Assembly: GCA_017523725.1 (NCBI GenBank)
Contig: JAFWVY010000023.1
Location: 1-64,000, forward strand
Direction of reading: 5' to 3'
Length of the DNA stretch: 64,000 nucleotides
From: Bacteroidales bacterium
GTDB taxonomy: Bacteria; Bacteroidota; Bacteroidia; Bacteroidales; UBA4181
In this document: in pieces, positions 18,505-50,351 of the stretch
Layout of the letters: every line of letters begins with the position of its first letter
Numbering within the stretch: the first letter of the stretch is position 1
Program-made: the position numbers and the translations under genes
The notes under the pieces: generated by a model
The model's input: the letters and a program-made list of their open reading frames with translations, nothing else
Told to the model about the DNA's origin: nothing
Databases searched by the model: none

Positions 18505-18541
18505 AGAAAAAATTTTATGATTAACTTTTAAAATTAGGCCG

Positions 18542-29160: not shown

Positions 29161-30909
29161 TCAGCAGCTGATGAATTCGAACTCAAAAGTGGCCACCGAG
29201 GCGGACCGGATATTTGCCATTTTTTGTAACTGACTGATCAGTACGGGCATATCTTCGCGACCATCCACGACATTCTTGTCCAGCGAGAGGGTGACACGTT
29301 CCGTCAGATGCTTCCGCTCAAGTTCGGTCCGGACCGTCATGTCCTTGAGGGTATCGCGCCGGAATCCGGCCTGGGTGAAGAACCGGATGCAGAACTGCTT
29401 GAGATCGGCTTTCGTGACGATGCGGTCGTTGGTCTGCATATAGTAGCGGGCCAGCATCTTTTTTTCTTCCGGATCTGTCACCTCGTCCTTCCCGCCGGTC
29501 GGCTTCATCAGCAACCGTGTGGTCTTCTTGTCCAGGTCGCGCGGCGGATTGACGGCCGAAAGCAGGTCTATGTCATTGGCGTAAGCGCCGTCCGTGAAGA
29601 GTGCGGAAAGCCGGATCGGGTCGGCGGATGTCGTGGCGGCGTTTTGTTTCAGAATGGCGTAGATGCCCGATTGCGGTACATTCTCGTCTTTAATGATCGT
29701 CAGAATGTCCTTCAGCACGACATCAAGCCGGCGGATCTTGTCGGCGTTCTGCATCTGGTGAATCTTCTGGAACGCATAGAAGTCGGATTCGTAGCGTTTG
29801 GCCAGTTCGCTGGCCAGCCGGATCAGCTCGTCAGGGTTGAACCTTTCGCAACCGAAGCGGCGGACGTAGAATTTGTCTGCATCCTCGGGAGAAAGTTCTT
29901 CATCGGACACCAGGTTCATGAAGAAATCGTGGTGGTTGTTTTCGGGGGTCTTGCCTGTCAGCAGCCGCAGCCCGCTGTTTTCCTCGGCTTCGAAATTGAC
30001 TTCGTTGGCCAGTTTGACAATGGGCTCCCTGGGAGAGAGCGTAAAATCTTTCCGGATCACGTTGACGGCCGGGAAACAATTGATTATCAAACTTCTTGCA
30101 TCAAAATTGAAGGGCTGGACCATGTCGGAGAACTCGAAGACGAGGTTGATGGCGTCCGACGTGATGGGCCGGTCGAAACTGCCGTCCACCATGAAATAAT
30201 TGATGTTGCGCGAGGTCCACAGGTCAAACCATTGCGTCCGATATCCGAAGAGCAGGCTGTTGTTCAGGAAGGCGTTGGCGTTCGAGAACCAGGAACAGAG
30301 CGGGAACCTTTCGAATTCCCACGGCTTGATGAGGTTCACCTTCTCGTTGCTCCAGTACACGTTCAGGTCGCTGAACCGTACGCCGTCAATGAAGAAACCG
30401 AGGTTGCCGAGGTCGGCTTTCGGATCGGTGAACCGCAGGTTGACGTTCCATTTGTCGGATGCAATCTTGGTGACACTGTTGACGGTCGCCCCGATGATTT
30501 TGGTGTCGAACATCGGTTGGAACGGGAACAGTTCCTTGAGACGCAGGGACTCCCGCTTGACGAGGAAGGTCGATTCTTCGTTGACGTAGCACGGGGACGG
30601 GTCGCCGGCCTGCTTGCCGGTGGCGATGATGGTGAAGGACGGCACCGCCTGGGTCAGGTGATACGGCATGACCAGCTGCTCCAACGTGTCCATCATGCCG
30701 TTCTCGAGCTGCGCCATATCGCGTTTCACGCCGTTTATCTGGTAAACGAACGCCGAAATCAGGATGCCGAGCAGCGGATCCTTCTCGATACCATAGAACG
30801 GCGCGTTCGGGTTGTTGCTGTCCCATTTGCCCTCGCTTTTCCAGAGTTGCAGCACTTTTTCCATCAGGGAATTCACCTGCCGCTGAATATCGTATTCTTC
30901 GTTTGTCAT
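29161..30909 (-). CDS. tssF: T6SS baseplate protein TssF
   Basis: 582 residues, the size of TssF. The N-terminus (residues 30-90: DPLLGILISAFVYQINGV, then LEQLVMPYHLTQAVPSF) follows the TssF pattern in which a helical start precedes a P-x(5)-P-S segment. With TssG and TssK it forms the baseplate wedge on which the tail tube and sheath assemble, on the cytoplasmic face of the inner membrane. It is the last gene of the T6SS run, 12 bp after tssE. Sequence is diverged from proteobacterial TssF. Confidence 0.8.
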   Translation of the reverse strand: MTNEEYDIQRQVNSLMEKVLQLWKSEGKWDSNNPNAPFYGIEKDPLLGILISAFVYQINGVKRDMAQLENGMMDTLEQLVMPYHLTQAVPSFTIIATGKQAGDPSPCYVNEESTFLVKRESLRLKELFPFQPMFDTKIIGATVNSVTKIASDKWNVNLRFTDPKADLGNLGFFIDGVRFSDLNVYWSNEKVNLIKPWEFERFPLCSWFSNANAFLNNSLLFGYRTQWFDLWTSRNINYFMVDGSFDRPITSDAINLVFEFSDMVQPFNFDARSLIINCFPAVNVIRKDFTLSPREPIVKLANEVNFEAEENSGLRLLTGKTPENNHHDFFMNLVSDEELSPEDADKFYVRRFGCERFNPDELIRLASELAKRYESDFYAFQKIHQMQNADKIRRLDVVLKDILTIIKDENVPQSGIYAILKQNAATTSADPIRLSALFTDGAYANDIDLLSAVNPPRDLDKKTTRLLMKPTGGKDEVTDPEEKKMLARYYMQTNDRIVTKADLKQFCIRFFTQAGFRRDTLKDMTVRTELERKHLTERVTLSLDKNVVDGREDMPVLISQLQKMANIRSASVATFEFEFISC

Positions 30910-30921
30910 AATCGTTTGTTT

Positions 30922-31401
30922 TTACCAGACCACGGTGTTGAATTCGTAATAATAGAACGCATGGGTCTCATCGTTGATCTTGCCTGAAACCGTAATGTGG
31001 ATGATTTTTCCGCGCGACTGGAAATCCATGGAGACCGATACGTCCTTCAGCCGTTTCTCATAACGCTCGATGGTGTGCTTGAGTTCGGTGGCGAAAGTGT
31101 CGCTGGTCCGGCTGTCCCCGATGATCTTCTTGTCGTACAGCGGATTCTTGATGTCGAAAAGCTGCGTGTTTTCTTTGGGATTCAGTTTGTTCTGCACAGT
31201 TTCGAAGAATTTGGCCCGTTCGACGCTGAAGCTTTCGAAGCGGAAGTCCTCCAAGGCGAACCCGAAGTCGGGATCGGCAATGCAGCAGAACTTGTTGGAC
31301 GCGATGAGCATGTCGAGAAAGGCATCGATAGACTGTTTGGTCTTGTCGTTGCCGGATTCGACCATCGGGTAGGATATCCTGAACGGATGCTTGATGAACA
31401 T
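30922..31401 (-). CDS. tssE: T6SS baseplate protein TssE (gp25-like)
   Basis: 159 residues, the usual TssE size. The C-terminal half has the gp25 pattern IERYEKRLKDVSVSMDFQSR, where a helix with R-x-E-x-R-L leads into strands. TssE joins the baseplate to the first sheath ring. It sits between tssK (18 bp upstream) and tssF. No signal peptide. Confidence 0.8.
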   Translation of the reverse strand: MFIKHPFRISYPMVESGNDKTKQSIDAFLDMLIASNKFCCIADPDFGFALEDFRFESFSVERAKFFETVQNKLNPKENTQLFDIKNPLYDKKIIGDSRTSDTFATELKHTIERYEKRLKDVSVSMDFQSRGKIIHITVSGKINDETHAFYYYEFNTVVW

Positions 31402-31419: not shown

Positions 31420-32286
31420 TTAGATGGTCGGACAGAATATCTCTTCGACCGGTTCCGGTTCGGGCACTTCGGCCGGCTTGGGTTTCAGGTCGTCCATGGC
31501 TGTAAGCGTTTCGCCGATGAATCCGATGAATTGACGCAGGAAAGGCTCGATGTCAAGCAGGTTGTATTCCGGCAGGTCGGCACTCCGTTCGAAAACAGGA
31601 TAGCTGAGCACGGTGGCGAGTTTGCTGCAGCGGGAGGCCAGCATGCGCGGTGAATCGTCCGCCCGGAAGTCCAGCAACTGTCCGGCGATGAGTCGCACCA
31701 GCAGCTTGTCCTCCAGTTTCTGGAAACTTTCGTGCTCCAGGATCTTCTGGATCTGCTGCTTGATCTGGTCCACTTTTTCCATCAGGATGAGGGAACTCCG
31801 CGCCGACACGACCGGCAGGATGAAGTCTTCGTCAACGGCACGTCCGTTCGCGTTTTTCAACTTCAGCAGCGGTACGGCGTCGTGAATTTCGTCCAGCGTC
31901 CGGCAGTCGAACACATATTCGTATGCGATGTGCGGGATGCCGCCGCGGTCGTACGATCTGGTCTTGTCACCGATGGAAACCGTGAGATACAGCACGTCAT
32001 CCTTCCGGTCCGGGATGGGCACGGACAGATTCTCCTCGGACTGCGCAATGACAACCTGGCCGGAGGGCAGCATCAGGGTGCATTCGATTTCCCTGATCTG
32101 GATATCCTTGTTCGAAAGGTCATAATTCAGGACGAACTTGCTTTGCGGAACGACCCCGAACACCTGGGTCGCCAGAATCTTGCGAAGTATCATGCGGTGT
32201 TCGCCCAGGTCGTTCTCCATGTCAATGAACGTCTGCGGCGTGATTTCCATGCCGGCATGCCAGTCGATTCTTATGTCTGTATTCAT
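31420..32286 (-). CDS. tssK: T6SS baseplate protein TssK, short form
   Basis: 288 residues. The start IRIDWHAGMEITPQTFIDME matches the TssK opening W-x-E/A-GM-x(2)-P/TPQ-H/T-F. TssK adapts the baseplate to the membrane complex. Proteobacterial TssK is about 440 residues with a phage receptor-binding-like C-terminal domain. Here the last residues (PKPAEVPEPEPVEE) are a low-complexity tail and that C-terminal domain seems missing, so contact with the envelope complex must differ. It lies 4 bp after tssG. Confidence 0.75.
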   Translation of the reverse strand: MNTDIRIDWHAGMEITPQTFIDMENDLGEHRMILRKILATQVFGVVPQSKFVLNYDLSNKDIQIREIECTLMLPSGQVVIAQSEENLSVPIPDRKDDVLYLTVSIGDKTRSYDRGGIPHIAYEYVFDCRTLDEIHDAVPLLKLKNANGRAVDEDFILPVVSARSSLILMEKVDQIKQQIQKILEHESFQKLEDKLLVRLIAGQLLDFRADDSPRMLASRCSKLATVLSYPVFERSADLPEYNLLDIEPFLRQFIGFIGETLTAMDDLKPKPAEVPEPEPVEEIFCPTI

Positions 32287-32290: not shown

Positions 32291-33064
32291 TTACAGTTGT
32301 GTATTATAATCTAGTACAAGGGGTGCGGTATCGGAGAGGATGAAGGCCTGCTGGAAGTCCTTGATGGCAAAGGTCATCGAGATGGGAACCGGCAGGAACC
32401 ATTCTTGCAGGAACTCAAAGAAGGGCCCGAGCAGGGCCATGAATTCCTGGTGCGTTTTCTGGAGGAGGCCCCGTTTGTTGATGACGAAACGGATGTCAAC
32501 GGGCGAAGTATGCTCCCATGTCACCGGACAGCGGAACACGTGCGAGAGCAGGTCGGAAATAAGCCGGATGTCGCCCCGGATCTTGGTCACATGCAGCAGC
32601 ATGGGCGCGAACCGCCGGATATACACATTGGGTTCGTTCTCCAGGTCGAAGTCGAAGAATTTCTTCAGCATGTTGCAGACGCTCTGCCGGACGGCTTCCG
32701 AGGCCGTCTTCTCAATCTGCAGGGACAGGTTGAAGATGGCCGTGTCGAAGGGCATGAAATAGCTCTTGATGGTCTGCTCCTCTTCCATGATTTCATTGAC
32801 GCGCGCCGTGAACTCGCGGCCGCTCTTCTGCCGCAGCTCCTGTTCATCGAAGAACAGTTTTTCGGGCAGCACCCGGTAGATGCCGTTGCGCGAGGTGAGA
32901 ATCTGCCTGGCGCCCGGATCGCAGCGTTGCAGGTCGTTCACGTAGTTTCTGCGGAAGAAACTGTCGTGATGGACCGTCCATTCGTCCACGTCCGGATAGT
33001 ACTGCGCAAGCAGGGTTTCCGCCCGCAGGTCTTCCATGTCCACATATTTGTCAACAACAATCAT
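32291..33064 (-). CDS. tssG: T6SS baseplate protein TssG
   Basis: 257 residues. Overall layout and position (between the other baseplate genes) fit TssG: an all-alpha/beta protein with HVTKIRGDIRLISDLLSHVF in the middle and LVLDYNTQL at the C-terminus. Two TssG copies clamp one TssF in the wedge. It begins 2 bp after the E1-like gene. Sequence similarity is weak by eye, so gene order carries much of the call. Confidence 0.65.
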   Translation of the reverse strand: MIVVDKYVDMEDLRAETLLAQYYPDVDEWTVHHDSFFRRNYVNDLQRCDPGARQILTSRNGIYRVLPEKLFFDEQELRQKSGREFTARVNEIMEEEQTIKSYFMPFDTAIFNLSLQIEKTASEAVRQSVCNMLKKFFDFDLENEPNVYIRRFAPMLLHVTKIRGDIRLISDLLSHVFRCPVTWEHTSPVDIRFVINKRGLLQKTHQEFMALLGPFFEFLQEWFLPVPISMTFAIKDFQQAFILSDTAPLVLDYNTQL

Positions 33065-33066: not shown

Positions 33067-34284
33067 TCAGACCTTTTCTTGGTTAATAAAAGGATAGCGT
33101 CCGGCATCACCCGTCAACTCGATATGGTACAGACCATGTTCGGTCGTCACCTCGATCACATCGTAGTAAGGAATTCCTATTTCTCTTAAAGTCAGACGTT
33201 TGTATGGGAAATTCCGGTCGATGTTCTCATAGGTGTTCTGGTTGAGTTCGGTGCGCGGCCTGGTGTAAAGATCGTAATTTTGGTCGATATAATCCGGAAT
33301 TTTCGATTCCGGCAGCATCGGCGTGAACTTCTGGTTGTCGTTCTTGGAGACAATGATGTCCACAAACTTGTCGTTCCGGAGGTTGATTTCCACTTCGTTG
33401 ACATTCAGGCAACGCCGAATCTGCGAGAAGGCGTCGGAGATGCGTGTGTCGGCACTGAGGCTGGACATCTGGAAAACATCGTTCCAGCATTCGTGCGAGG
33501 GACAATCTTCGTCGAAAGAGCGGCTGTCGTATACGGCGATGCGGTTGTGCATGCCCTCGTAATGCAGCCATTTACCGGTCAGCGGCGTGAAAAGGCCGGA
33601 GTCCACTTCTTTCTTGTGAAGCAGTTTCATGGCTTCCTGCACCTCTATGGCGCCGATGATCGAGGCGATGACCGGTGTGGTCGGCGTGCGGCCGGCCTGT
33701 TCGTTGCGCTGGGCCACGCCCGCACAGGACAATTGCTGCGAGATATGTTGTTTGGCGTGTTCAGTCAGGCTGCATTCATAGCAGTTTTCGTTCTGCCTGA
33801 AGATGCGTACGTTGCCCGTCAGATTCTCGATGCCGCCGTCGATCCACGGCACGTTGGCCCGCATGCACAGCCGGTTCAGCTGCAGCCGTGCCAGCCGGCT
33901 GTCCAGACAACCGATGACGACATCCATTTTGCGGTAGAGCCCCAGTCCGACTTCGGAGGCCAGATGGCCGCAAACGCACTGTACGTTGATTTGCGGGTTG
34001 ATCTCCCGGATTCTTTCTGCAGCGACTTCGGCTTTGTACAGACCTTTGTCTGCATCTTCCGGGCGGAACAGGATGGAACGCGTGAGATTGGAGAACTCAA
34101 TGGTATCGAAATCGACGATATAGATGTTGCCAACCCCGAACAAGGCCAGATTCTTCAGTGCTTCGTTGCCAAGTGCACCGGCACCGACCACCATGACACG
34201 GGCCTGCCGTACCGTCTCGTTCTTGTACCACGAGAGCAGGTCGAAGACTTCTTTGCCCCAGGTTTGCAGTGTCCCGTTTTCCAT
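33067..34284 (-). CDS. E1-like ubiquitin-activating enzyme (ThiF fold, UBA3-like)
   Basis: 405 residues. The ThiF adenylation domain has GAGALG (34-39), IVDFDTIEFSNLTRS (Asp58, Asp60, Arg69) and Lys84. C168-x2-C171 and C261-x4-C266 are candidate zinc ligands. Cys187 in QQLSCAGVA falls 16 residues after Cys171, where human UBA3 has its catalytic Cys 14 residues after the same pair. TTPVIASIIGAIEVQEAMKL (202-221) is the UBA2/UBA3-type helix. About 100 C-terminal residues look like a beta-grasp ubiquitin-fold domain (KRLTLREIGIPYYDVIEVT), which in eukaryotic E1s binds the E2. Expected role: adenylate and thioester-link the ubiquitin-like protein at 42027-42341. Cytoplasmic; set between tssG and the outer-membrane protein gene. 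Confidence 0.85.
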   Translation of the reverse strand: MENGTLQTWGKEVFDLLSWYKNETVRQARVMVVGAGALGNEALKNLALFGVGNIYIVDFDTIEFSNLTRSILFRPEDADKGLYKAEVAAERIREINPQINVQCVCGHLASEVGLGLYRKMDVVIGCLDSRLARLQLNRLCMRANVPWIDGGIENLTGNVRIFRQNENCYECSLTEHAKQHISQQLSCAGVAQRNEQAGRTPTTPVIASIIGAIEVQEAMKLLHKKEVDSGLFTPLTGKWLHYEGMHNRIAVYDSRSFDEDCPSHECWNDVFQMSSLSADTRISDAFSQIRRCLNVNEVEINLRNDKFVDIIVSKNDNQKFTPMLPESKIPDYIDQNYDLYTRPRTELNQNTYENIDRNFPYKRLTLREIGIPYYDVIEVTTEHGLYHIELTGDAGRYPFINQEKV

Positions 34285-34289: not shown

Positions 34290-35456
34290 TTATTTAAGTG
34301 TATAGACCAGGCCGATTTCAATGGTCGGCAGGAAAGTCCTGAGACCGTCCCAGGCACTGTCCGCCGTGTAACCTGTCGCATCTTCGACCGGTTTATGGTC
34401 GATCATCGGTGTTACGGCATATTCACACCGGATGCCGGCTTTGAACAGCAGACTCGATGCGTAGCGCACCGGCCGCAGGCAGCCGGCGGGGATGTAGGTG
34501 CCGAATGCGGCGTGTGCCCACAGGGCGAAAGAACGTGCTTCGGGTTCCGCTGCAACGGTCTCCATATTGACTGGCAGGACGACCCTTCCGGGGGTCTCCT
34601 CGCCATGGGGTGAGACAATCCGATAGTCGGAACTGAGGCAGATCGACGGTGTGACGCCGAATTTGCCGTAAACCGTGATTCGGCTGGACGAAGGCTGGCC
34701 GAAGCAGCATTGTACGGGGAAGTCCAGATATTTGACGGTCATTTTTTCCTTGACACGGTTCAGTGTCTGGTTGTTGTCAAACCAGAAGAACGTGTTTTCG
34801 TCCGGTGGCGCCAGTACGGATATGGCCCGCCAGCCGACGCCGGCTTCCATGGAGAAGGGGAAGTTCAGGCCCCACCGGCCGGTGCCGAAATACAGCGCAG
34901 CCTGTGTGAACCATCTGAAATCCTTGACGGTCATGTCTTCGTTGTCCCGGTCGTAGAGTACCGGTCCGGCGGCCGCGGTGACACCGATGACCGGCGTCCT
35001 GGCGGGCAGGCCGATGAAGAAAGACATGTCCCCGTTCCTGCCGCCCGTCACAGCCTCCTGCGGCCTGTCCTGCCGGGCGGCGCGGTCTAACTGCAGGTTG
35101 TGAAGCGTCATGTTCAGGGCTGTGATGGTATTGTTCAGCGAATCAATCTGGATTTCCTTCTGCATGTACTTTTCGCTCAGCGCTTCGGCTTCGGCCGAGG
35201 CCTGCGTCAGCGTGTCGATCAGCCGGTCCCGCCTGGCGACAGCTGCTTCGAGCGTTTTAATCTGCGCCTGGAGTTCGTCGACGACCTGGTATTTGACATT
35301 TTCCATGTAGTCTTCGACCGTCCCCTTGTAATAGTCCACTTTCAGTTCCTTCCCGTCTTTCGTCCTGCCGTGGATGCTTTGCATCTGCGACTGGGCGCAG
35401 ACCTCGACGGCCATGCAGCACAGGCTCAGCGTAATCAGAAAACAGACGTGTTTCAT
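34290..35456 (-). CDS. Outer-membrane beta-barrel-like protein with coiled coil (T6SS-linked)
   Basis: 388 residues. A signal peptide ends near EVCAQS. Residues ~30-130 are a coiled coil (VDELQAQIKTLEAAVARRD and following heptads), then an alternating barrel-like region to the C-terminus, which ends in IEIGLVYTLK, a typical barrel last strand. It may span the outer membrane, with the coiled coil reaching into the periplasm, and so stand in for TssJ-type envelope anchoring. This role is inferred from the operon position only; no named family is recognised. Gene follows the RING/FHA gene by 20 bp. Confidence 0.6.
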   Translation of the reverse strand: MKHVCFLITLSLCCMAVEVCAQSQMQSIHGRTKDGKELKVDYYKGTVEDYMENVKYQVVDELQAQIKTLEAAVARRDRLIDTLTQASAEAEALSEKYMQKEIQIDSLNNTITALNMTLHNLQLDRAARQDRPQEAVTGGRNGDMSFFIGLPARTPVIGVTAAAGPVLYDRDNEDMTVKDFRWFTQAALYFGTGRWGLNFPFSMEAGVGWRAISVLAPPDENTFFWFDNNQTLNRVKEKMTVKYLDFPVQCCFGQPSSSRITVYGKFGVTPSICLSSDYRIVSPHGEETPGRVVLPVNMETVAAEPEARSFALWAHAAFGTYIPAGCLRPVRYASSLLFKAGIRCEYAVTPMIDHKPVEDATGYTADSAWDGLRTFLPTIEIGLVYTLK

Positions 35457-35476: not shown

Positions 35477-37792
35477 CTATTTGTCTTTTTCGATATAGGT
35501 GAAGGTGGTTGCGCCAATGGTGAAGGCGTCGCCGTGCGACAGCCGGACGACCGAACCTTCTTCCAGCGTCTGGCCGTTGTCGTTCATCACGGTGCCGCCT
35601 GCCAGCGCCTTCGCGAAGGGCAGGTCGTTCTCGATATAGAGTTCCAGTTGCTTTGCCGCGATGTTCTCGCTTTTGTCCCATGTCATGGCGATGACGCAGT
35701 CTGGCGAACTGCCGATCGTGACATGGTGTGCGCCACCGATGGCGTTCATCCATTTGTAGATGGCGATGTCACGTTCTTTGGTGGAACCTTCGACATGGAG
35801 GAAATAATTTTCGGATGCATACTGGACGATGGCGATGATGGCACCGAGCAATGCGGCGTACAGCATAAAACCGTAGACGCCTATGATGTCTTTTTTGATC
35901 AGATAGATAACTGCAAAGGTCAATGCCGCGGCAATCAGGCTTCCAAGCACAGCCTTGCCGGTGGATATCTCCGACTTGACGGCAAGCAGCCAGGTGACGG
36001 CGATGCCGAAGAGCAGCCACGGCACCCAGTCGAGCCACAGGCAGTTGCCCACCTTACCAACGGCGATGATGGCGATGGAACCGATCAGGAAGGCCAGGAA
36101 ACCCATCACGGCGTTGCCGACGGACCGTCCCAGGATTTGCAGAATGCGTCCAACGGTTTTTTTGCGGAACTCTGACAGGAAGCTGAATACCAGTGTGGTG
36201 AAGAAACCCAGCAGCGCGCCTCCCCACAGGAGAGGTGTGATCTTTCCGGCATAGGCAGCTACCTGATCCCGTTGGAACAGGGTCGTGATTTTGCCGATCA
36301 GTCCGTCAAACAGATGGCAGGGCAGAATCAGTTGCAGAACCATCCATGCCAACAGACCGGCGACGAGGCCGCACAGCATCCATTTGGTGAAGTTCGGCGC
36401 GTTCTTGCGGTCGGCCAGATTTTTTTTGTTATAATAATAAATGCCTTCCTTACAGTTGTTTATGCCATATTCCGGGCATCGGTTCTGGTTCTCCTCCCAG
36501 CATTCGATGTGCACGGTATGCTGGCACTTGGTGACGATGACGTCGCCGTCCTCGAAGTCTCCCTTGCAGTAATAGCACTGCTGCAGCACATGGTCTTTCT
36601 GGGCGCGCGACTTGTTGTAGGTCTTGACATGGCGGAGCCGGAACAGCCGGTAGAGGAGGAACGGCAGCAGGAACTGCAGGATGAGGTAAAGGACGGCCAG
36701 GCAGACGAGACCGGCAATCAGACCCTGCAGCAGGTCCGGACGGCCGGCAGCTGCTGCATCTCCGGGAAGGACGACCAGCGGCGCCAGCACAGATCCCAGC
36801 GCATAGGGCATGTCTCCGGTCGCGTTGTACTTGTCGGCTTTCAGCCGCAGGTCCGATGTCTGTCCGTTATAGGTGGTCTTTTCCCGGATGGAATACACCA
36901 GCCGGTAGTCCATGGCGACCGAATCGACGCTGCCGGCAAAAACGGCGGTGAGGGAATCGGCCGAAAAACTCGGGTAGATTTTTCCTTCGTCGGCGCGGTG
37001 GCAGATGAACAGCATCTCATTCTGCATCTCCTGGTCGAGCCGTTCGCCGAAATAGACGCAGTAAATGGCTTTCAGCTGTTCGGGGATGGTGGTGTAATCG
37101 TTGTTCGCGAATTTGAGTTTCGCATCGTAAAAAGAAGCATCGGTGTACTGGTCGATGTCACCGGTAAAGATGAAGAAATATTTGTCGGACAGGCTGTCGG
37201 TGGCCAGTTCGGCGTTGAATCCGACATCGGGCAGATACCGATTTTTTGGCGGCACATTGTTGATTTCCTGAATTTTGGAGATAAGAGCCGAATAAATGGA
37301 CAACTGCTCGTAGGCCTGCGTGGTCATGGCGTCGCTCTTGACGTAATTCTCGATGCTTTCGCCGGGATAGACCCGTTCGGTCGGAGAGATTTCGTCACCG
37401 ATGGCCGCGATGTAGATTTTGGCGGTTTTCGGCAGAGCACTGGCGAATGCCACAATCGATTCTCTGAGCGCCAGATAGTTGGCGAGCGATATGTTGGCAC
37501 TTTTGTCGGCCAGTATGAGGATGTCTATGTTGCGTGAGAAGTCACTGCGCCGACTGATGTCAAGCAGACTGTCGATGCTGAGCGGCGTCTCGGTGCCGGC
37601 GGTCAGTTCTGTGCAGACCAGGTCTCCGATTTCGAGGTCTGGGATGAACTGCTTCTGTCCATTCCGCATGAACTTGAAATCCACGCTGCGGCGGGCGCCG
37701 TTCCCCCGGGCATTGCCGAATTCGATGCTTGTCTGGGCCTGCGTGGCGAGCACCATGCAGCAGAATAGAAACAATAAGCTAATTCTTTTCAT
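35477..37792 (-). CDS. VWA-like / RING-H2-like / polytopic membrane / FHA protein, E3 candidate
   Basis: 771 residues. Signal peptide (1-20). A periplasmic VWA-like domain (~88-300) has ILADKSAN (degenerate MIDAS, Asp96-x-Ser98-x-Asn100) and FFIFTGDID. TM1 lies at ~354-381, followed by a basic stretch that places the next part inside. A RING-H2-like finger follows: Cys406, Cys409, Cys423, His425, His428, Cys431, Cys439, Cys447 (C3H2C3), with CQHTVHIEC and a Pro after Cys439. The last pair spacing is x7 rather than x2. Six more helices follow (~471-658), then a cytoplasmic FHA-like domain (685-768: VTIGSSPDC, HGDAFTIGATTF). With E1, E2, JAMM and Ubl genes alongside, an E3 ligase role is the best guess. 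A TssN/TssR-like structural role is also possible. Confidence 0.75.
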   Translation of the reverse strand: MKRISLLFLFCCMVLATQAQTSIEFGNARGNGARRSVDFKFMRNGQKQFIPDLEIGDLVCTELTAGTETPLSIDSLLDISRRSDFSRNIDILILADKSANISLANYLALRESIVAFASALPKTAKIYIAAIGDEISPTERVYPGESIENYVKSDAMTTQAYEQLSIYSALISKIQEINNVPPKNRYLPDVGFNAELATDSLSDKYFFIFTGDIDQYTDASFYDAKLKFANNDYTTIPEQLKAIYCVYFGERLDQEMQNEMLFICHRADEGKIYPSFSADSLTAVFAGSVDSVAMDYRLVYSIREKTTYNGQTSDLRLKADKYNATGDMPYALGSVLAPLVVLPGDAAAAGRPDLLQGLIAGLVCLAVLYLILQFLLPFLLYRLFRLRHVKTYNKSRAQKDHVLQQCYYCKGDFEDGDVIVTKCQHTVHIECWEENQNRCPEYGINNCKEGIYYYNKKNLADRKNAPNFTKWMLCGLVAGLLAWMVLQLILPCHLFDGLIGKITTLFQRDQVAAYAGKITPLLWGGALLGFFTTLVFSFLSEFRKKTVGRILQILGRSVGNAVMGFLAFLIGSIAIIAVGKVGNCLWLDWVPWLLFGIAVTWLLAVKSEISTGKAVLGSLIAAALTFAVIYLIKKDIIGVYGFMLYAALLGAIIAIVQYASENYFLHVEGSTKERDIAIYKWMNAIGGAHHVTIGSSPDCVIAMTWDKSENIAAKQLELYIENDLPFAKALAGGTVMNDNGQTLEEGSVVRLSHGDAFTIGATTFTYIEKDK

Positions 37793-37793: not shown

Positions 37794-39428
37794 TCAATTT
37801 CTTTTTCTCCTTAACCATTCTTTCATTTGATTCATTGTCACGACCGCCTTCACGCCGTCTTCGGGAGGAATGCAGATATCCAACTCTTCATCCGTCCGGT
37901 ACACGACGTAGAACAATTTGCCGCTGAGCTGCGAAGCATAGGCAGTCGCAATGGCGTCGGTTCCAGCCGTGGTATGGACGACCAGGCATCCGACGGTGTC
38001 ACCGTTGCTGTATGGCAGGCAGTTCTCTACGAAAAGCGTCCGGGAAATCTTGTGTCCGCTGAAATAGCCGATGACGCCTTCAGATGAGTTGTATATGAGG
38101 TCGTTGATTTGATTGATTGCTTTTCCGGAAAGACTGATGCCGCACAAGTTCCCGCTTTCGACGGGAATCTTCATGTAGTGCGGATTTTCGGCGCTCTGTT
38201 CATCGTCTGCGGTGACAGGCTGCCGGTTTCGTTCGCGTTCGGCCTGCCGCGCCTGTTTGTACATTTCCTCGAAGGAGAACCACTTCCTGACATCGTCCTT
38301 GTTGTTCATCCGTCCGTCCGTCTGCGGCGTGAAACAACCCAGCTGGAGCTCCATGCTGTTGGTGTCGATGACCAGGGCGATCAGCCGGTTGGCAAATTCG
38401 GTATAGACCAGTTGGCGCTGGACGATCAGATCCTGGTTCGACAGGAAGAGGCCCAGTCCGGGATGGGAGTGGATCCAGCCGGTAAGCACATAGTCCCTGC
38501 CGGTTTTCGAGGCCAGGCTGTTGATGAGCGAACCCATGCTGACGCCGATTTTCTTTCCGAAGTTGAGGCTGTATTCGCCGAAATCGGCGTCGTCGCCGGG
38601 CTCTACCATGTATTCCACGCTGATGTCAAAGCGGTCCTGGCTTCCTTCGGCGTAATCCCAGCAACCGACCAGGTAACATCCCGTTTCGTTGGTCCGTTCG
38701 CCGTTCTCCAGCGAACGGTTGAAAAACGAATAGACTTTCTTGACAAGGTCGATGCTGAAATACATCCGGTTGATGCCCGTGTTTTCAAAGACTTCGTTCA
38801 AATCGAACGTCAGGTATTCTTCCGGATGGGACAATACATGCTGCAGACCTTTGGCGTAATGTTCCGACGTGTCTTCGATGACGGTGAAAACATCGTCATC
38901 CGTCTGTTTTTTCCGGAACCAGAATCTCTGTCCGGTTTTCTTTTTCCGTACCATGAGCACCAATATGGCAATGGCGCAAAGCAACAATGCAATGATGATG
39001 TTCTGCATAGTGACGAAACCCTTTCCTTCCTTGCCGGGCGTTCCGGCAGCGGCCGGGTCTTCTTCGGGTGATGTGCTATTGTCCGTCCCGGCCGGCTTGA
39101 GCCGGACGGCGATGCAAAGCTGGTGCTCCGCGTCGTTGAACGTGCAGTCGAGGAAGATTTCGCCGTTGCGGTCGGACAGCCGTTCGATGGGGAAGGTATA
39201 GGTGCCCGGCATGAAGAGGCACGTGCTGTCCTGGTTCCATGCAAAAGCTTCGCAGACCGGGGCGCATCCGCTGATGGCGGCTCTTGAGAATCCCAGCCTT
39301 CCGGACGGTACGCTGATGGTCAACGTCCGGCCGTCATAGGTCGCAGTCGGCCCCTCGGCGCGGCATATGGCCGGCAGCAGCAGAGAGACTGCCAGAACAA
39401 CCGATATGATGCATGAGCGGTGTTTCAT
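37794..39428 (-). CDS. Membrane-anchored JAB/JAMM isopeptidase
   Basis: 544 residues. A signal peptide (1-24), a periplasmic domain of about 115 residues and a single helix (142-160) followed by RKKK place the rest in the cytoplasm. The JAMM metalloprotease motif is complete: Glu248 in NETG, His320, His322, Ser330 and Asp333 in HSHPGLGLFLSNQD (H-x-H-x7-S-x2-D). A second, motif-less MPN-like region follows (~410-530, with GVIGYFSGHKI). JAMM enzymes cleave isopeptide bonds or mature ubiquitin-like proteins; here it would remove or process the Ubl. It ends 1 bp before the RING/FHA gene. Confidence 0.88.
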   Translation of the reverse strand: MKHRSCIISVVLAVSLLLPAICRAEGPTATYDGRTLTISVPSGRLGFSRAAISGCAPVCEAFAWNQDSTCLFMPGTYTFPIERLSDRNGEIFLDCTFNDAEHQLCIAVRLKPAGTDNSTSPEEDPAAAGTPGKEGKGFVTMQNIIIALLLCAIAILVLMVRKKKTGQRFWFRKKQTDDDVFTVIEDTSEHYAKGLQHVLSHPEEYLTFDLNEVFENTGINRMYFSIDLVKKVYSFFNRSLENGERTNETGCYLVGCWDYAEGSQDRFDISVEYMVEPGDDADFGEYSLNFGKKIGVSMGSLINSLASKTGRDYVLTGWIHSHPGLGLFLSNQDLIVQRQLVYTEFANRLIALVIDTNSMELQLGCFTPQTDGRMNNKDDVRKWFSFEEMYKQARQAERERNRQPVTADDEQSAENPHYMKIPVESGNLCGISLSGKAINQINDLIYNSSEGVIGYFSGHKISRTLFVENCLPYSNGDTVGCLVVHTTAGTDAIATAYASQLSGKLFYVVYRTDEELDICIPPEDGVKAVVTMNQMKEWLRRKRN

Positions 39429-39440: not shown

Positions 39441-40196
39441 TTAGATGGAAGGCAGTTCCTCCTGGGGTTGCTGGGTTGTCTGGGCCTTTTTGAGCTGTTT
39501 CTTGATTTTCAGTTTCTGCATGACCATGTTGAACGCGATGAACACCATGGCGGCTGCCGTGATAATCTTGAAAATCATGTCGCTGAGCGATTTGCTGATG
39601 ATGTCGGTGGTCGAGATGCGTGTGTAGGTCTCCTTGACGGCATTCCATGTGGCGGTCAGGGCCTCGTTGTCATCGAAGATCTGCCGGTTGCTGTTGTATT
39701 CCACAGTTGCTTCGCTGTTGAAATATTCTTCGGCTTCTTTCTTGACGAGCTTCAGCGAATCGATGCGCTTGTTGGCGACATAGCGCTCGGCCTGTTGCTG
39801 CATGACCTGCAGCCGCGCCAGATAGGTGTCGAACTTTCCGGAGAGCTTGTCGATAACCTCCTGCTGTGCCCTGGCGGCCTTCAGCTCCTCAATGTGTTTC
39901 CCGATCTGCTGGTACAGGTCGGTGTAGTTCACATAGATTTGATGGAGGTTCTTCTGGTAGCGGATGATCTCGCTGTAGTCGCTGTAACACGATTCCACCA
40001 GCTTGATGTGCGCCTTGTAGGTATTTTCGTACCGGTCTGCGTCTTCGGCTGTGACAATCTTGTTGTTCAGTTCGACAAGCTCTTTGTAATATCCTTCCAG
40101 TTCGGCTTTGACGTACTCATCCTGGGCCCGGCTGACGGCAGGCAGGGCTGTAAGCAGTACGGCAAGAAGACAGGCGGTACCCAGTATTTTTTTCAT
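39441..40196 (-). CDS. Periplasmic coiled-coil protein with C-terminal membrane helix (T6SS-linked)
   Basis: 251 residues. A signal peptide ends near VSRAQ. Long helical, coiled-coil-prone periplasmic part (~25-200), then one membrane helix (~208-226, MIFKIITAAAMVFIAFNMV) and a short basic cytoplasmic tail with KKQLKKAQ. Type I topology suits a strut between inner membrane and periplasm. The layout recalls Bacteroidetes TssO/TssP membrane-complex proteins, but I cannot confirm homology. Its neighbours are the 397-residue exported protein and the JAMM gene, 12 bp away on each side. Confidence 0.6.
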   Translation of the reverse strand: MKKILGTACLLAVLLTALPAVSRAQDEYVKAELEGYYKELVELNNKIVTAEDADRYENTYKAHIKLVESCYSDYSEIIRYQKNLHQIYVNYTDLYQQIGKHIEELKAARAQQEVIDKLSGKFDTYLARLQVMQQQAERYVANKRIDSLKLVKKEAEEYFNSEATVEYNSNRQIFDDNEALTATWNAVKETYTRISTTDIISKSLSDMIFKIITAAAMVFIAFNMVMQKLKIKKQLKKAQTTQQPQEELPSI

Positions 40197-40208: not shown

Positions 40209-41402
40209 TTATTTGATGAGTTTCTTGGCGGTTTCGTAATTGTTGAGAATCTTGGAATCCAACCGGCTGGCGCACGATTGCGACAATCCTCTGATGGTGG
40301 CGTCGGTGGCGCTGACGAGGCTGTCGAAGGCCGCTTTCTGCGAGGCCTTGGTGGCTTCGTCCCGGGCGGAGATCCAGTCGTTGGCCAGGCCGTTGAGCCG
40401 GCTCGTGGCTGCTCTGATCTCGGAGTTCAACGCGGCGGGATCGCACGGTGCCGGAGCTTCGGCGGCGGCGCCACCGCCGGCCGAGGTGTCGTAGGCCTTG
40501 ATCCGGTCCATGCAGCTCATCAGGTCGTCATAGGCATACTGCAGTTCTTCGCAGCCGCTGTTGTCGAAACGGCGGGCGTCGATCTTGGAGAATTGCTCAA
40601 CCAGCAGTTCCTTGCATTTTGCCAGCAGTGCGCGGCCCGATTTCTGGAGTTCTTCCATCTTGGCTTCACCGGCGGCGAAAACCGACAGATATTCCTTGGC
40701 AATGACCAGCAGCTGCTCGTTCTCCTTGCAGGTGTCGATGGTCAGATTGATCTCAATCTCAATGTCGGAGCCGATGTAATTCAATACTTTGCCTTTAATC
40801 ATCGGCATGGGGTTCTTGAGGATGACATACACCTTCTTGGCCCCTTCCTCCAGCTTGAAAGATATTTCCATCTCCGATTTCCCGTCCAGCGGAAGAATCT
40901 GACGGTCGATGGGTTTGGACAGTTTCATCGGCGAGGTCAGTTCGCATCCGTCGTAATTGCAGCCGCGGGCGTCTGCAAACGTCTCGACGGAGGAGTCGTA
41001 CAGGTTGAGGAAACTGATCTGTTCGTTGAACGTCGCGGTGGATTTGAAGGCACCGCCCCGTTTCTTGAAATAATCCTTGAAATCTTCAATTTTGATTTTG
41101 TTCTGCGGCAGCCACACGAATTCGTTGGCCCCGGCCGCGGCTTTCGCCGGCTGTGCTTTCTTGCCTTTCCCGGCCGGTTCTTCCGGTTTCGGGGCGCTCA
41201 GTTTGAACGTCATGACGCGGTCGGTCTTGCTGAACTGTGCCGTGAGTTCCAGGTCGACCGAAGGGATGCGGTCGTTGTAGCCCTTGACGGTGATGGTCTG
41301 CGTAACAGGCTGGTCCGGTTCGAGGTTGAAGGTGTAAGCGGATTCCGCGAATGCCATGAAGGGCATCGCGGCCAATACTGCGGTTGCTAATTTCTTGATC
41401 AT
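40209..41402 (-). CDS. Exported protein of unknown function (T6SS-linked)
   Basis: 397 residues with a signal peptide ending at MAFAES and no other membrane segment, so probably periplasmic. The N-terminal half is beta-rich; a low-complexity patch (GKGKKAQPAKAAAGA) sits near residue 80. The C-terminal ~170 residues are helical with several Cys and a Gly/Ala/Pro-rich insert. No family recognised. Lying 8 bp after the E2-like gene and 12 bp before the coiled-coil membrane protein, it probably belongs to the envelope part of the secretion machine. Confidence 0.6.
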   Translation of the reverse strand: MIKKLATAVLAAMPFMAFAESAYTFNLEPDQPVTQTITVKGYNDRIPSVDLELTAQFSKTDRVMTFKLSAPKPEEPAGKGKKAQPAKAAAGANEFVWLPQNKIKIEDFKDYFKKRGGAFKSTATFNEQISFLNLYDSSVETFADARGCNYDGCELTSPMKLSKPIDRQILPLDGKSEMEISFKLEEGAKKVYVILKNPMPMIKGKVLNYIGSDIEIEINLTIDTCKENEQLLVIAKEYLSVFAAGEAKMEELQKSGRALLAKCKELLVEQFSKIDARRFDNSGCEELQYAYDDLMSCMDRIKAYDTSAGGGAAAEAPAPCDPAALNSEIRAATSRLNGLANDWISARDEATKASQKAAFDSLVSATDATIRGLSQSCASRLDSKILNNYETAKKLIK

Positions 41403-41410: not shown

Positions 41411-42007
41411 TTAGTTTAGATTGTTTCTGAGTTCTTTAATCCATCCGTTGGGCTCGGCCTGCTCCAGCACCCATTCGGCCACTTTCAGGTCTTCCGGGAA
41501 TGGCGGTGTATTCTGTGCGTGGTATTTCTCGTATTTCAGATACAGCATCACGCGGTCGACATACCAGGCCAGGTCGGTGAACGTGCCGCAGGCCGGCGTG
41601 TTCAGACACACATGGCCGGCAAAGTCGCCGTAATACCGGATGTTCGGATGCCACGGATGCGGAATCTCCCGTCCGTCCCCGTCGGTCGTCAGAAACCGGA
41701 ATTCCAGTTTGCTGTCGATGGCGGGATAGTTGTTCGGAATTTGGATGACCATGCGGAATTCGTCTCCGAAAACCGGCCGGTTCCATCCGTCTCCGTCTGC
41801 AGGAAGGACGCCGCAGAACGAGTGCACCTTGAAAACGACCTCGTACATGGTGGGGAGATGGTCGGCATTGCGGCGCCTGACGGTATAGGCAATGTCCGGT
41901 TCGTCCCTGAACCTTGCGTCCATGGCGGTCCACTCATACATCAGCCTGCGGTTCTTGCCCGTGAAGCGGATGTTTCTATACCGGTCTATTTCCTGGTGCG
42001 GATCCAT
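41411..42007 (-). CDS. E2-like ubiquitin-conjugating enzyme
   Basis: 198 residues, UBC fold. The N-terminal helix (RRLMYEWTAMDARF) is followed by strands, including FRMVIQIPNNYPAIDSKLEF, which parallels the F-x-I-x-F-P-x2-YP-x(3)-P core of E2s. Then comes His120-Pro121-Asn122, the HPN motif that builds the oxyanion hole, and Cys134 in GHVCLNT, corresponding to the catalytic Cys of ICLD in canonical E2s. The HPN-to-Cys distance is four residues longer than usual. It would carry the Ubl, encoded 19 bp upstream, as a thioester. Cytoplasmic; start at 42007. Confidence 0.88.
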   Translation of the reverse strand: MDPHQEIDRYRNIRFTGKNRRLMYEWTAMDARFRDEPDIAYTVRRRNADHLPTMYEVVFKVHSFCGVLPADGDGWNRPVFGDEFRMVIQIPNNYPAIDSKLEFRFLTTDGDGREIPHPWHPNIRYYGDFAGHVCLNTPACGTFTDLAWYVDRVMLYLKYEKYHAQNTPPFPEDLKVAEWVLEQAEPNGWIKELRNNLN

Positions 42008-42026: not shown

Positions 42027-42341
42027 TTATCCGGCAATCGGATCCGAAATGATTTCGAGTGTCTCTCCCGGCTTGACATTGTAGTCGAGCAGCGATTTCC
42101 TGGATCTGCCGACCCTGGGCTGCAGGATGATGTCACGTCCGGTGGCTTCGTCCTTTTTGCCGAAGAAATACTCCGTCGGCACATAGTCCACCATCTCGGG
42201 CATGTCGAAAATCCGGGTGCCGGTGTTGTCAGCGGCTTTCCGCAGATTGCTCATCAGCGTCTCAAGTTCGGTGTTCGGATCGGTCACCTTGAATTTGATG
42301 GTTTTGTTCTTGTACCTTAAAAATACGAAAAAATCGTCCAT
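42027..42341 (-). CDS. Ubiquitin-like protein with C-terminal Gly
   Basis: 104 residues. A beta-grasp layout: FFVFLRYKNKTIKFKV is the first hairpin, then a helix, then the end LLDYNVKPGETLEIISDPIAG (positions 84-104). The last 21 residues align without gaps to ubiquitin 56-76: LxDYN, then TL, two hydrophobic strand residues, and a final Gly at the Gly76 position. Gly75 is Ala here. No residues follow the Gly, so no processing is needed before E1 adenylation. About 25 extra residues lie between helix and last strands. The E2 gene follows by 19 bp. YukD-like relatives are possible. Confidence 0.82.
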   Translation of the reverse strand: MDDFFVFLRYKNKTIKFKVTDPNTELETLMSNLRKAADNTGTRIFDMPEMVDYVPTEYFFGKKDEATGRDIILQPRVGRSRKSLLDYNVKPGETLEIISDPIAG

Positions 42342-42361: not shown

Positions 42362-42943
42362 CTATTTCAAATCTTTCAATATTTCGAATTCCTCGCCCGA
42401 CAACTCGCCGAGATCGTGGCAGCACATGGCAATCAAAGCGGTCTTGACGGCTTCCGAGGTCCGGTCCTGCCGTGCATCCGCCCGACGGCCCCACGCGTCT
42501 GGCCTTCCGTTTCCATTCTCGGTGCCGGCTTTCTGTTCGTTCAGCGCGTCCGCGACGGACATGTCGTTCTGGAACCCGAGCGAGGCCATGATTTTCAGTT
42601 TCATCCGGCTGTCGAAGATGCTGGGACTTGCCTGCCGTCCGGCGATGAGGTTGTCCAGCCAATGCCAGGACTCCGTCTGCCGTAACCGGGTCATCACCTG
42701 CCGCTGCAGTTCCCGGTAAAAACTTTCGTCGAATTGTTCCGGACGGTCGTCGTGAGCGTTGATACGCGACATGTAACGGGTCTGCAATACAGCATCGTAG
42801 GCCCTTGAGATAACTTTCTGTATGTTGATACGGAAGTTGACCTGGGACCATGTGGGAATGCCGAAATCCTCCTTCAGCCGCATCGGTGAGACGTGCGGAA
42901 GATACTCGAAAAAGCGGTCTTTTGTATTGATGACTCTTCTCAT
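42362..42943 (-). CDS. Unknown T6SS-linked cytoplasmic protein
   Basis: 193 residues, no signal peptide or membrane segment. The N-terminal two thirds look all-helical, with FGIPTWSQVNFRINIQKVIS and a Trp pair (SWHWLDNL); a polar low-complexity stretch (TENGNGRPDAWGRRADARQD) precedes a C-terminal helix pair with two adjacent Cys. No family recognised. It lies 20 bp before the Ubl gene and 7 bp after the 169-residue gene. It could be a target or cofactor of the conjugation system, a TssA-like adaptor or an immunity protein; nothing in the sequence decides. Confidence 0.55.
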   Translation of the reverse strand: MRRVINTKDRFFEYLPHVSPMRLKEDFGIPTWSQVNFRINIQKVISRAYDAVLQTRYMSRINAHDDRPEQFDESFYRELQRQVMTRLRQTESWHWLDNLIAGRQASPSIFDSRMKLKIMASLGFQNDMSVADALNEQKAGTENGNGRPDAWGRRADARQDRTSEAVKTALIAMCCHDLGELSGEEFEILKDLK

Positions 42944-42950
42944 GCCGGTC

Positions 42951-43460
42951 TTATTTCTCCATCATTATTACTTCTTTTTCACGTTTCAGCAGGACGCCTG
43001 TCGTCGCATCAAAATGCACGGTTTCGAGGATCTTCGGAGCGGGGCAAAGCGTGAAACGCCATTCGGCGATGCCTTCGCGCGTTTTGCCGCGGCCGATGGA
43101 TGTCACTTCCTGCAGGGAAATCTTTTCTTCTCTCAATCGCTGTGCCATCTGGTCCCATGACACCGGAAAATCTGCATCTGTGTCATGTTCTGCGACAATT
43201 CCGCCGAATTCGTCATATTCTTTCCATACACCGATGCGGGTGCCTCCTTTTTTCAGGAAATGTCCCTCTTCCTTCAAGGTCAGCGTGCTGGGATAATACG
43301 AACGTCCCCGGCAGACCATGTCCGGGAAGGCTGGAATGTTGTAGGTCACGTATTCTTCATCGTATTCCAGCATCTTAACGGTTTCCCCGTCCTCCCTGCG
43401 CAGCACGGCGGCACCGTTGTCGTAATGTTCCTCGAAGAAATATAAGTCGAACTTTTCCAT
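42951..43460 (-). CDS. Unknown protein after the metallopeptidase effector
   Basis: 169 residues, no signal peptide. Mixed alpha/beta, acidic, with beta-rich text such as VLLKREKEVIMMEK at the end and GIVAEHDTDADFPVSWDQM in the middle. No family recognised. It begins 12 bp after the metallopeptidase stop. That position suits an immunity protein or effector chaperone, but an effector acting in the periplasm would normally need an exported immunity protein, which this is not. Confidence 0.55.
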   Translation of the reverse strand: MEKFDLYFFEEHYDNGAAVLRREDGETVKMLEYDEEYVTYNIPAFPDMVCRGRSYYPSTLTLKEEGHFLKKGGTRIGVWKEYDEFGGIVAEHDTDADFPVSWDQMAQRLREEKISLQEVTSIGRGKTREGIAEWRFTLCPAPKILETVHFDATTGVLLKREKEVIMMEK

Positions 43461-43472
43461 GGTACTGCCGGG

Positions 43473-45860: not shown

Positions 45861-45863
45861 GAC

Positions 45864-46985
45864 TTAACAGTTAAAACTGCAAATTTCTGTCTCTTCGCAA
45901 CCGATGGCCTCACAGTCGTTGGTCAAGGCCTCGTAAACTGCCTGCGACAGCTTGTCGGCATCGTACCGGAGACAGTCTCCGGGATTGGTGATATAGAGGT
46001 ATTCGATGACAATGGCCCGGTCGCCGAGCGCATTGTCATTGCTCACAAACGGATGCGATATCGAACGTCTTACGCCGTTGCACTTGAGTCCGGTCGCGGC
46101 GGCAATCCGGCGGCTGATGCGGCAGGCGGCGCGCAGTGTTTCTTTCTGCTCCGGATCCAGCCGGAAGGGATAGCTGCTGCCGCGGTTGAAAATCTTACGG
46201 TCGTCCTTGCCGTCCACGCTGCGGACGATGGTGTGCACGCCCGTGCTGTAGCCGTCCGCCGCACGGTAGGATGTGCAGGTTTCACCGGTGGCCTCCATGG
46301 TGCACATCTCTCCCTGATGGGGGCAGTCCGGGGCGGTGCAACTCTTGATGTCGAGGAAACGGCACGGTGCCGCGCTGATTTCGTGTGCGATGAAATAGAG
46401 TGCGTCCTGATTTTCCGGCGCGCCGTATTTCAGCCGGAGGTCGCGGCACGGCTTGCCGGGCTGTCGGCACATGACATAAGCCCTTTCGTGGTGCGGACAG
46501 TCGCCACGTTCGCCGTTCCCGGCCTCGCAGGTGAGCGGTGCCTTGTTCAGCTGGGTGAATTTTCCGCAGATATGGTTTTCGTCCCGGAAGGAGCATGCAT
46601 ATTTTTTATCTCGCAATGCGGGTGTGCCGTGTCCGGCGGACAGGTCACGGTTGAGGGCACAGGTCTCGTCGCACCGTCCGATGTCCCCGACCGCAGCTTG
46701 TCTCGCAAGCTGGCCGGAAACCTTCTGACATGCAGGCATCTTGAGCGGAAAAACCTGTATGCGGGCATTCTCATCGTTGCATTGTGCGATGAACCGGGCT
46801 CCGATTTTCTTGGCGAGGTCTTCCTGTCTCAACCGGATGTCCGGGTTTGCACCGGTGACGGTGACGCTCCTCTCCGGACAAAAGAGAATATCGCACGCCA
46901 TGCACCCGGCGAGGGAAGTCTCCGGATAGCTCTCGGCGCTGACGACCGTGATGGCAGGCTGATATTTCTTGTGTTCCCAGTCCAT
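45864..46985 (-). CDS. Cysteine-rich protein with amidase_3-like motifs, probable T6SS effector
   Basis: 373 residues with about 25 Cys. Motifs in the order of N-acetylmuramoyl-L-alanine amidases (amidase_3) can be made out: His119 in SAGHG, Glu135 sixteen residues later, His201 in ALYFIAHEISAAP (compare DLFISIHANA), TGVHTIV (compare GVETYY), and Glu328 in AIVIEYLYITNP (compare VLVELGFITNP). Two CPH-x(5-8)-C-x(6-8)-C repeats (163-180, 221-237) lie around the third motif. No signal peptide. Placed between the PAAR-like tip and the metallopeptidase, it is a good candidate for a peptidoglycan-cleaving effector. Homology is by eye only. Confidence 0.5.
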   Translation of the reverse strand: MDWEHKKYQPAITVVSAESYPETSLAGCMACDILFCPERSVTVTGANPDIRLRQEDLAKKIGARFIAQCNDENARIQVFPLKMPACQKVSGQLARQAAVGDIGRCDETCALNRDLSAGHGTPALRDKKYACSFRDENHICGKFTQLNKAPLTCEAGNGERGDCPHHERAYVMCRQPGKPCRDLRLKYGAPENQDALYFIAHEISAAPCRFLDIKSCTAPDCPHQGEMCTMEATGETCTSYRAADGYSTGVHTIVRSVDGKDDRKIFNRGSSYPFRLDPEQKETLRAACRISRRIAAATGLKCNGVRRSISHPFVSNDNALGDRAIVIEYLYITNPGDCLRYDADKLSQAVYEALTNDCEAIGCEETEICSFNC

Positions 46986-46986
46986 G

Positions 46987-50288: not shown

Positions 50289-50301
50289 GGTTTTTCGATT
50301 G

Positions 50302-50336
50302 AAAAAGAGCAAAGGCAAAATGAATTGCCTTCGCTC
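50302..50336 (-). terminator. Hairpin with T-run after hcp (partial terminator or processing site)
   Basis: On the minus strand GAGCGAAGGCA pairs with TGCCTTTGCTC across an 8-nt loop (50307-50317 with 50326-50336, one mismatch), followed by five T residues (50302-50306). It lies between the main hcp and the next T6SS gene. It probably lowers downstream expression or protects the 3' end of hcp mRNA, giving the large excess of tube subunit. Confidence 0.7.
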
Positions 50337-50351
50337 TTCAGGATTGACAAA

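Follow-up and report, generated by a model that had tools for sequence, protein, structure and literature searches.

A ubiquitin-like conjugation cassette with a predicted transmembrane RING-type E3 embedded in a Bacteroidales T6SS-iii operon in which TssN is missing

Results

Gene content of the T6SS operon

The window (the whole stretch of 64,000 nucleotides analysed here) contains an operon of 23 genes, all on one strand, running from 55163 down to 29161 with gaps of at most 41 bp. The genes follow one another in the order TssH, TssB, TssC, two TssD, VgrG, DUF4280, four cargo-like genes, Ubl, E2, u40, u39, JAB, RING, u34, E1, TssG, TssK, TssE and TssF. The T6SS-iii parts found in the window are TssB, C, D, E, F, G, H, I and K, encoded along with the cargo-like genes as follows:

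52665-55163, minus strand: TssH/ClpV-type AAA+ ATPase (Pfam AAA_2, ClpB_D2-small)
52171-52623, minus strand: TssB sheath protein (T6SS_VipA E 0.0015, under the cut-off; adjoins TssC)
50785-52161, minus strand: TssC sheath protein, Bacteroidota family PF17541 (3.5e-105)
49782-50744, minus strand: two TssD/Hcp genes, 50352-50744 and 49782-50318 (Pfam TssD 9.8e-28 and 1.2e-11)
47424-49769, minus strand: VgrG/TssI (Pfam Phage_base_V 5.8e-15)
42362-47418, minus strand: PAAR-like DUF4280 (4.7e-31) and four variable cargo/immunity-like genes not assigned to a family
32291-33064, minus strand: TssG-like baseplate protein (family HMM matches canonical T6SS-iii TssG, e.g. 5.5e-35)
31420-32286, minus strand: TssK baseplate protein, short, 288 aa (NCBIfam TIGR03353 9.2e-9)
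30922-31401, minus strand: TssE (gp25) (Pfam GPW_gp25 8.9e-9)
29161-30909, minus strand: TssF (Pfam TssF weak; matches canonical TssF, e.g. 1.4e-58)

Since TssC is present as a sole copy in the genome, this T6SS is the only one that the genome encodes. Canonical loci and those of the Alistipes/Parabacteroides type encode a TssK of about 380 aa; the shorter window protein may lack its C-terminal part or have another in its place. Two of the genes near DUF4280 are candidate T6SS cargo: the one at 43473-45860 encodes a protein of 795 aa that bears, close to its C-terminus, the zincin-like metallopeptidase motif GHELLHQLNLRH, and the one at 45864-46985, located between it and DUF4280, encodes a Cys-rich protein of 373 aa with a weak Amidase_3 match (E 0.019). 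A promoter and terminator scan remained at chance level.

The conjugation cassette

A cassette encoding a Ubl, its putative conjugation enzymes and accessory proteins is located between the cargo-like genes and TssG:

42027-42341, minus strand: Ubl, 104 aa, ending ...DYNVKPGETLEIISDPIAG (C-terminal Gly invariant; profile matches ubiquitin in the PDB, E 6e-4)
41411-42007, minus strand: E2 conjugating enzyme, HPWHPNIR..GHVC (HPN and catalytic Cys invariant)
40209-41402, minus strand: u40, signal peptide, periplasmic (kept together with the cassette)
39441-40196, minus strand: u39, signal peptide, helical periplasmic region, C-terminal TM (kept together with the cassette)
37794-39428, minus strand: membrane-tethered JAB/JAMM protease (Pfam JAB above the cut-off; invariant JAMM)
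35477-37792, minus strand: RING protein, predicted transmembrane RING-type E3 with VWA-TM1-RING-6TM-FHA fold (ligands 406-447, AlphaFold2, PDB profile and fold searches)
34290-35456, minus strand: u34, signal peptide, coiled coil, C-terminal region resembling an outer-membrane barrel (variable member)
33067-34284, minus strand: E1 of ThiF/MoeB type (Pfam ThiF 4e-54)

The catalytic residues of the Ubl, E1, E2 and JAMM protease are all intact. The match of the Ubl profile to ubiquitin runs through a common DYN...L segment. The E2 reaches E 0.01 against Pfam UQ_con, which is under the cut-off, and its profile found no match in the PDB at E 0.1. The E1 harbors an invariant C187 (candidate catalytic Cys) and a CxxC zinc site; it gave partial matches to E1-E2 fusion models of PADLOC, and the PADLOC models for E2 and Ubl gave no match. 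The JAMM protease consists of a signal peptide, a periplasmic domain, a TM segment and a cytosolic JAMM domain, in which the motif E...HxHx(7)SxxD is present (E248, H320, H322, S330 and D333).

In three loci, the Ubl carries residues past its C-terminal Gly (AK in L027, YLVV in L085 and GK in L078), and all three have a JAMM gene; the aligned Ubls from loci devoid of JAMM end on Gly. Although the numbers are small, this confinement of tailed Ubls to JAMM loci is what a role of JAMM in maturation or deconjugation predicts. JAB is absent from nine loci, and a search of nine genomes, which had no positive control alongside, did not find it either, so that reversal by JAB would not be obligatory.

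The RING domain

The RING gene encodes a protein of 771 aa. As the initial annotation had claimed, eight potential zinc ligands (406, 409, 423, 425, 428, 431, 439 and 447) are present in the C3H2C3 order of RING-H2, following the string C406-x2-C409-x13-C423-x-H425-x2-H428-x2-C431-W432-x6-C439-x7-C447. Any RING-like C/H pattern, even a loose one, was found in 0 of 200,000 shuffles of the protein; therefore, the pattern is not due to chance. Homologues with about 26-52% identity were gathered from rumen MAGs, Alistipes, Parabacteroides and Mediterranea. In the resulting alignment of 29 proteins (the window protein and 28 homologues, down to ~26% identity), C406, C409, C423, H425, H428, C431, C447 and W432 are found in all 29, and C439 in 28, the exception (L005) having its own Cys a few residues away. 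The effective number of homologues is below 29 because some loci are near-identical. The same annotation had considered it unusual that the last two ligands are spaced x7. Among bacteria this is not odd: many homologues have x6 and L005 has x3, and prokaryotic RINGs are reported to typically carry a longer insertion between these two ligands (PMC11354881).

A profile search against RING families, which had been proposed along with these claims, retrieved RING-H2 E3s from the PDB but did not reach the Pfam cut-offs. All Pfam RING models stay under their curated cut-offs with the window protein (best E 0.0011), with 18.5 versus 27.3 bits for zf-RING_2, 19.3 versus 27.9 for zf-RING_5 and 14.6 versus 29.1 for Prok-RING_1 (PF14446). 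The latter matches 22 of 23 members of the family at E <= 0.1, and a Prok-RING_1 search of 99 Bacteroidota genomes gave no useful relatives. Weak matches to Bestrophin-like and Rho_Binding families, also under the cut-off, were discarded. Hence, the RING assignment rests on other evidence. When compared without bias with all PDB chains, the family profile matches RING-H2 E3s over residues 404-456, including the eukaryotic RNF165 (E 0.006), RCHY1 (0.01) and RNF126 (0.011). Furthermore, the RING region folded alone (pLDDT 70) matches mainly RING/U-box E3s, among them Arkadia, APC11, RNF126, RNF8, RNF4 and RNF12, with the weak E-values (0.16 and above) of a short domain. The RING-type domain is the safest part of our overall reading. 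Searches for relatives of the protein in phages and plasmids found none. Its cultured carriers include Mediterranea massiliensis Marseille-P2645T and Caecibacteroides pullorum AN421.

Layout of the RING protein

The protein comprises, in this order, a signal peptide, a periplasmic VWA domain, TM1, a cytoplasmic RING, six TM helices and a cytoplasmic FHA fold. The AlphaFold2 model, built from a 23-row alignment (mean pLDDT 78), places the VWA domain at ~85-300, TM1 at 352-388, the six TM helices at 469-659 and a beta domain at 663-768. The RING is placed in the cytoplasm by the basic stretch RLFRLRHVKTYNKSRAQK right after TM1, and the six TM segments are predicted to bring the FHA fold back into the same compartment, in agreement with the initial annotation. 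In the PDB, the family profile matches integrin I domains at the N-terminus and the DgcB FHA domain at the C-terminus. In addition, the VWA domain superimposes on an integrin I domain (VIA-align Z 17.5, rmsd 2.9, 177 residues aligned) and the C-terminal domain on FHA domains (Foldseek TM about 0.75-0.78, with 0.78 for DgcB FHA 6hc1). The protein also has a weak match to the TagH model TIGR03354 (E 0.0012).

The overall layout proposed for a transmembrane E3 therefore stands as regards the RING-type domain, the VWA domain, the FHA fold and the presence of dedicated E1, E2, Ubl and JAMM genes, but the claim that the C-terminal module reads phospho-Thr is not supported. The Arg, His and Asn of the pThr site are replaced in the window copy (GSS, KQ and no N-G), even though the FHA fold is real. 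The metal site of the VWA domain (MIDAS) is also degenerate (ADKSANI), and no kinase was found among the genes of the window operon. In the window clade, the FHA fold is most likely a docking module and not a phospho-reader. What the initial annotation mainly left out is the membership of the RING gene in a T6SS operon and the co-occurring lack of TssN.

Linkage of the cassette to baseplate genes

Family HMMs found RING, E1, E2 and Ubl together with TssG, K, E and F in the window and in 23 other Bacteroidales loci; two further loci with the cassette break off at contig ends. No locus of sufficient length to assess this lacks any of RING, E1, E2 and Ubl. Two gene orders are observed, Ubl-E2-u40-u39-(JAB)-RING-(u34)-E1-TssG-K-E-F and E1-TssG-K-E-F-Ubl-E2-u40-u39-RING. 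The linkage between cassette and baseplate genes thus survives rearrangement, which argues for a joint function. Eight canonical T6SS-iii loci were devoid of cassette members. Within the clade, the Ubl is conserved at 79-86%, while the neighbouring cargo genes vary.

Several of these loci carry additional genes. In L080, for instance, genes for a peptidoglycan-binding protein and a Ser/Thr protein kinase (3300-4625, Pfam 2e-43) are located close to TssF. L009 (18856-20007), L012 (18898-20061) and L029 (19735-20874, also near an Hcp-like gene) each have a second u40 paralogue in the vicinity of VgrG, suggesting that u40 may recur as a component of T6SS. L007 (4412-5488) and L013 (1-5014) encode, immediately upstream of Ubl, secreted proteins whose ends, KLVVQ or KLIINR, resemble T9SS C-terminal sorting signals.

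Absence of TssN

The membrane complex of Bacteroidota T6SS is TssNQOPR, described as obligate and as the sole kind in the phylum; TssR contains a VWA domain, and TssN, nearly ubiquitous in these T6SS, has a ubiquitin-like cytosolic domain that binds TssK (PMC10781749). TssN was detected in none of 31 RING-bearing genomes (that of the window and 30 others), whereas all three control genomes were positive. Some of the 31 are incomplete MAGs, but so many misses are hard to explain by assembly gaps. In the window genome, the genome-wide search covered TssN and TssR, and TssR was not found there either. Moreover, related loci contained no TssN-, O-, Q- or R-like ORFs.

Various candidates for homologues of the missing proteins were examined and rejected. 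The TM/FHA half of the RING protein aligned with TssN over 48 columns with an hhalign probability of 8%, and u39, u40, u34 and the N-terminus of the RING protein had no profile match to TssO, P, Q or R. The comparison of the Ubl with the cytosolic domain of TssN (probability 4.8%, P 0.0084, 75 columns, in a matrix of 40 tests) is suggestive only. TssP-profile matches in L076-L079 belong to loci without baseplate genes and resemble PKD-repeat proteins. Since RING, u39 and u40 show no sequence homology to TssN/O/P/Q/R, a role in the membrane complex rests on exclusion and topology. As the same holds for u34, the replacement would be non-homologous but built from comparable components, namely a VWA in the periplasm, helical partners with a single TM and a polytopic protein whose docking domain is cytosolic.

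Distant relatives and other settings

In two genomes outside the order (L076 and L078), the zinc ligands of the RING are lost and CxxC is replaced by DPIT, in the style of a U-box; the region (~410-455) still has the GD.VVKC core and the Trp. Both proteins have a canonical metal site in the VWA domain (DWSGS) and a canonical pThr site in the FHA domain (GR...RHA...NG), and the VWA and FHA domains of L076 pass the Pfam cut-offs. This zinc-free, U-box-like version, found in an nSTAND1/ion-channel context, would represent a RING-to-U-box change within one bacterial family. The E1-Ubl-E2-JAB-RING module of L076 and L078 lies beside nSTAND1 and ion channel genes and adjoins an eCIS_core protein, with no baseplate genes nearby. 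The neighbours of the Ubl cassette in L076 (3-7564 and 14731-15636) are eCIS_core, PAAR, an nSTAND1 NTPase and an Ion_trans-family channel, which together resemble a conflict system whose effector is a channel. In L085, which also has no baseplate genes nearby, SrfB (1e-213) and SrfC-like (Virul_Fac 2e-139) genes are found at 11382-18543, just downstream of Ubl-E1-E2-JAB-RING; SrfABC may be tied to Ubl conjugation. These relatives located away from T6SS genes indicate that the module is portable and not T6SS-specific by origin. Within Bacteroidales, it is mostly tied to T6SS.

Discussion

Taken together, the cassette loci tie a full Ubl E1-E2-E3-protease cascade, in which the E3 is predicted, to a bacterial nanomachine. 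We consider it probable that they represent a variant of T6SS-iii in which a transmembrane RING E3 belongs to the membrane complex and directs Ubl conjugation at the interface between baseplate and membrane. The E1 would adenylate the C-terminal Gly of the Ubl and hand it to the E2. The RING, flanked by TM1 and the six-helix bundle and held against the cytoplasmic side of the inner membrane, would bind E2~Ubl and place it beside the baseplate. The Ubl would then be attached to a T6SS component, either the baseplate proteins TssK/G/F or a membrane-complex subunit, and this attachment may license the machine to dock, assemble or fire; in loci that encode the membrane-tethered JAMM protease, the latter would remove the Ubl. 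The periplasmic VWA domain, u39, u40 and u34 may link conjugation to the envelope. RING, u39 and u40 would stand in for TssNQOPR: the VWA would correspond to that of TssR, and the polytopic anchor, with its docking domain in the cytosol, to TssN. This replacement is the least safe part of our reading and, like the E3 activity, its substrate and the T6SS dependence, it is inferred.

Some of this evidence is also compatible with other explanations. An independent Ubl-conjugation module of conflict or defence type (Bil/Bub-like), targeting phage or the cell and not the secretion machine, could have lodged in T6SS operons. The occurrence of the same module beside nSTAND1 and ion channel genes or SrfB/SrfC in other genomes is the main support for this, and bacterial Ubl systems known so far are mostly defence systems (PMC12687455). 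However, the cassette lies inside one continuous operon, its tight interleaving with baseplate genes persists across a change of gene order, and TssN is missing in every RING-bearing genome tested, so that we regard such a lodger as rather unlikely. It is less probable still that the RING is a structural zinc domain without E2 binding, in a protein that would be a membrane-complex scaffold, with E1, E2 and Ubl working without an E3. Such an explanation takes advantage of the indirect basis of the E3 role and of the loss of zinc ligands in two distant homologues, but in these a U-box-like DPIT loop takes the position of CxxC, which would be expected under selection for E2 binding but not for zinc, and the constant company of RING, E1, E2 and Ubl also speaks against it.

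The position of the cascade directly downstream of VgrG/PAAR-like and cargo genes would fit a T6SS cargo, the cascade or the Ubl itself acting in prey or host cells. We find this very improbable, given the signal peptides and TM segments of RING and JAB, the high conservation of the Ubl within the clade next to cargo genes that vary, and a second gene order that ties the cassette to baseplate genes and not to VgrG. The transmembrane E3 sensor suggested by the initial annotation, in which the VWA domain would sense an outside ligand and the FHA domain would read phospho-Thr on substrates, has in its favour the confirmed layout, the canonical FHA and MIDAS of a distant homologue and the Ser/Thr kinase near one T6SS locus (L080). 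It is highly unlikely for the window protein, whose pThr-binding residues and MIDAS are degenerate and whose operon contains no kinase.

From the T6SS-iii variant outlined above, it seems that ubiquitin-style conjugation may assemble or control a bacterial weapon. More tentatively, one can imagine contractile secretion systems forming a class of their own, where a RING/U-box E3 serves as the inner-membrane anchor, covalent attachment of a dedicated Ubl assembles, docks or fires the machine, and a free, conjugated beta-grasp protein does the job of the beta-grasp domain fused in TssN; we see this as possible but doubtful. The cassette loci contradict the view of the published survey that TssNQOPR is obligate and the only kind in Bacteroidota T6SS. 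If our reading is true, ubiquitin-type conjugation would serve a secretion system, the RING family would provide a model for the origin of membrane RING E3s, and a natural RING-to-U-box transition would have taken place inside one bacterial family. Cultured carriers (Mediterranea massiliensis and Caecibacteroides pullorum) make this reading testable.

Comparison with known systems

In the literature searched, we found no report of a Ubl cascade linked to T6SS; the architecture or its context may have been noted earlier. Bil/Bub operons also group Ubl, E1, E2 and protease in one operon, according to PMC12687455 and PMC13373217. Unlike them, the window system has a dedicated membrane RING-type E3, a membrane-tethered JAMM and an embedding in a secretion operon.

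Tri-ligase Ubl systems with a prokaryotic RING-type E3, including Prok-RING_1 (PF14446), were reportedly described by Burroughs et al. in 2011, as cited in PMC7159879. TM helices are noted in Pfam for bacterial members of Prok-RING_1. Such tri-ligase systems resemble the cassette in having E1, E2, RING, JAB and Ubl in one neighbourhood and are described in conflict systems (PMC7159879). They differ in that the window RING is under the PF14446 cut-off and in that a T6SS link is unmentioned for them in the searched literature. The Ub operon of Caldiarchaeum subterraneum likewise combines Ub, E1, E2, DUB and a C3H2C3 RING-H2 E3; it is archaeal, PMC11354881 reports no secretion system for it, and the window E3, in contrast, is a VWA-TM-RING-6TM-FHA membrane protein.

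TagH of T6SS-i (TIGR03354) shares with the RING protein an FHA domain tied to T6SS. TagH is part of a kinase/phosphatase switch, whereas the window FHA fold has lost the pThr-binding residues and its operon is without a kinase. Lastly, the canonical T6SS-iii (PMC10781749) has the same PF17541 sheath, baseplate, Hcp, VgrG and ClpV, and it likewise relies on a VWA in the periplasm, that of TssR, and on a polytopic protein, TssN, with a domain in the cytosol. Unlike it, the window type is without TssN and carries Ubl-E1-E2-RING(-JAMM) together with u39 and u40 in the operon.
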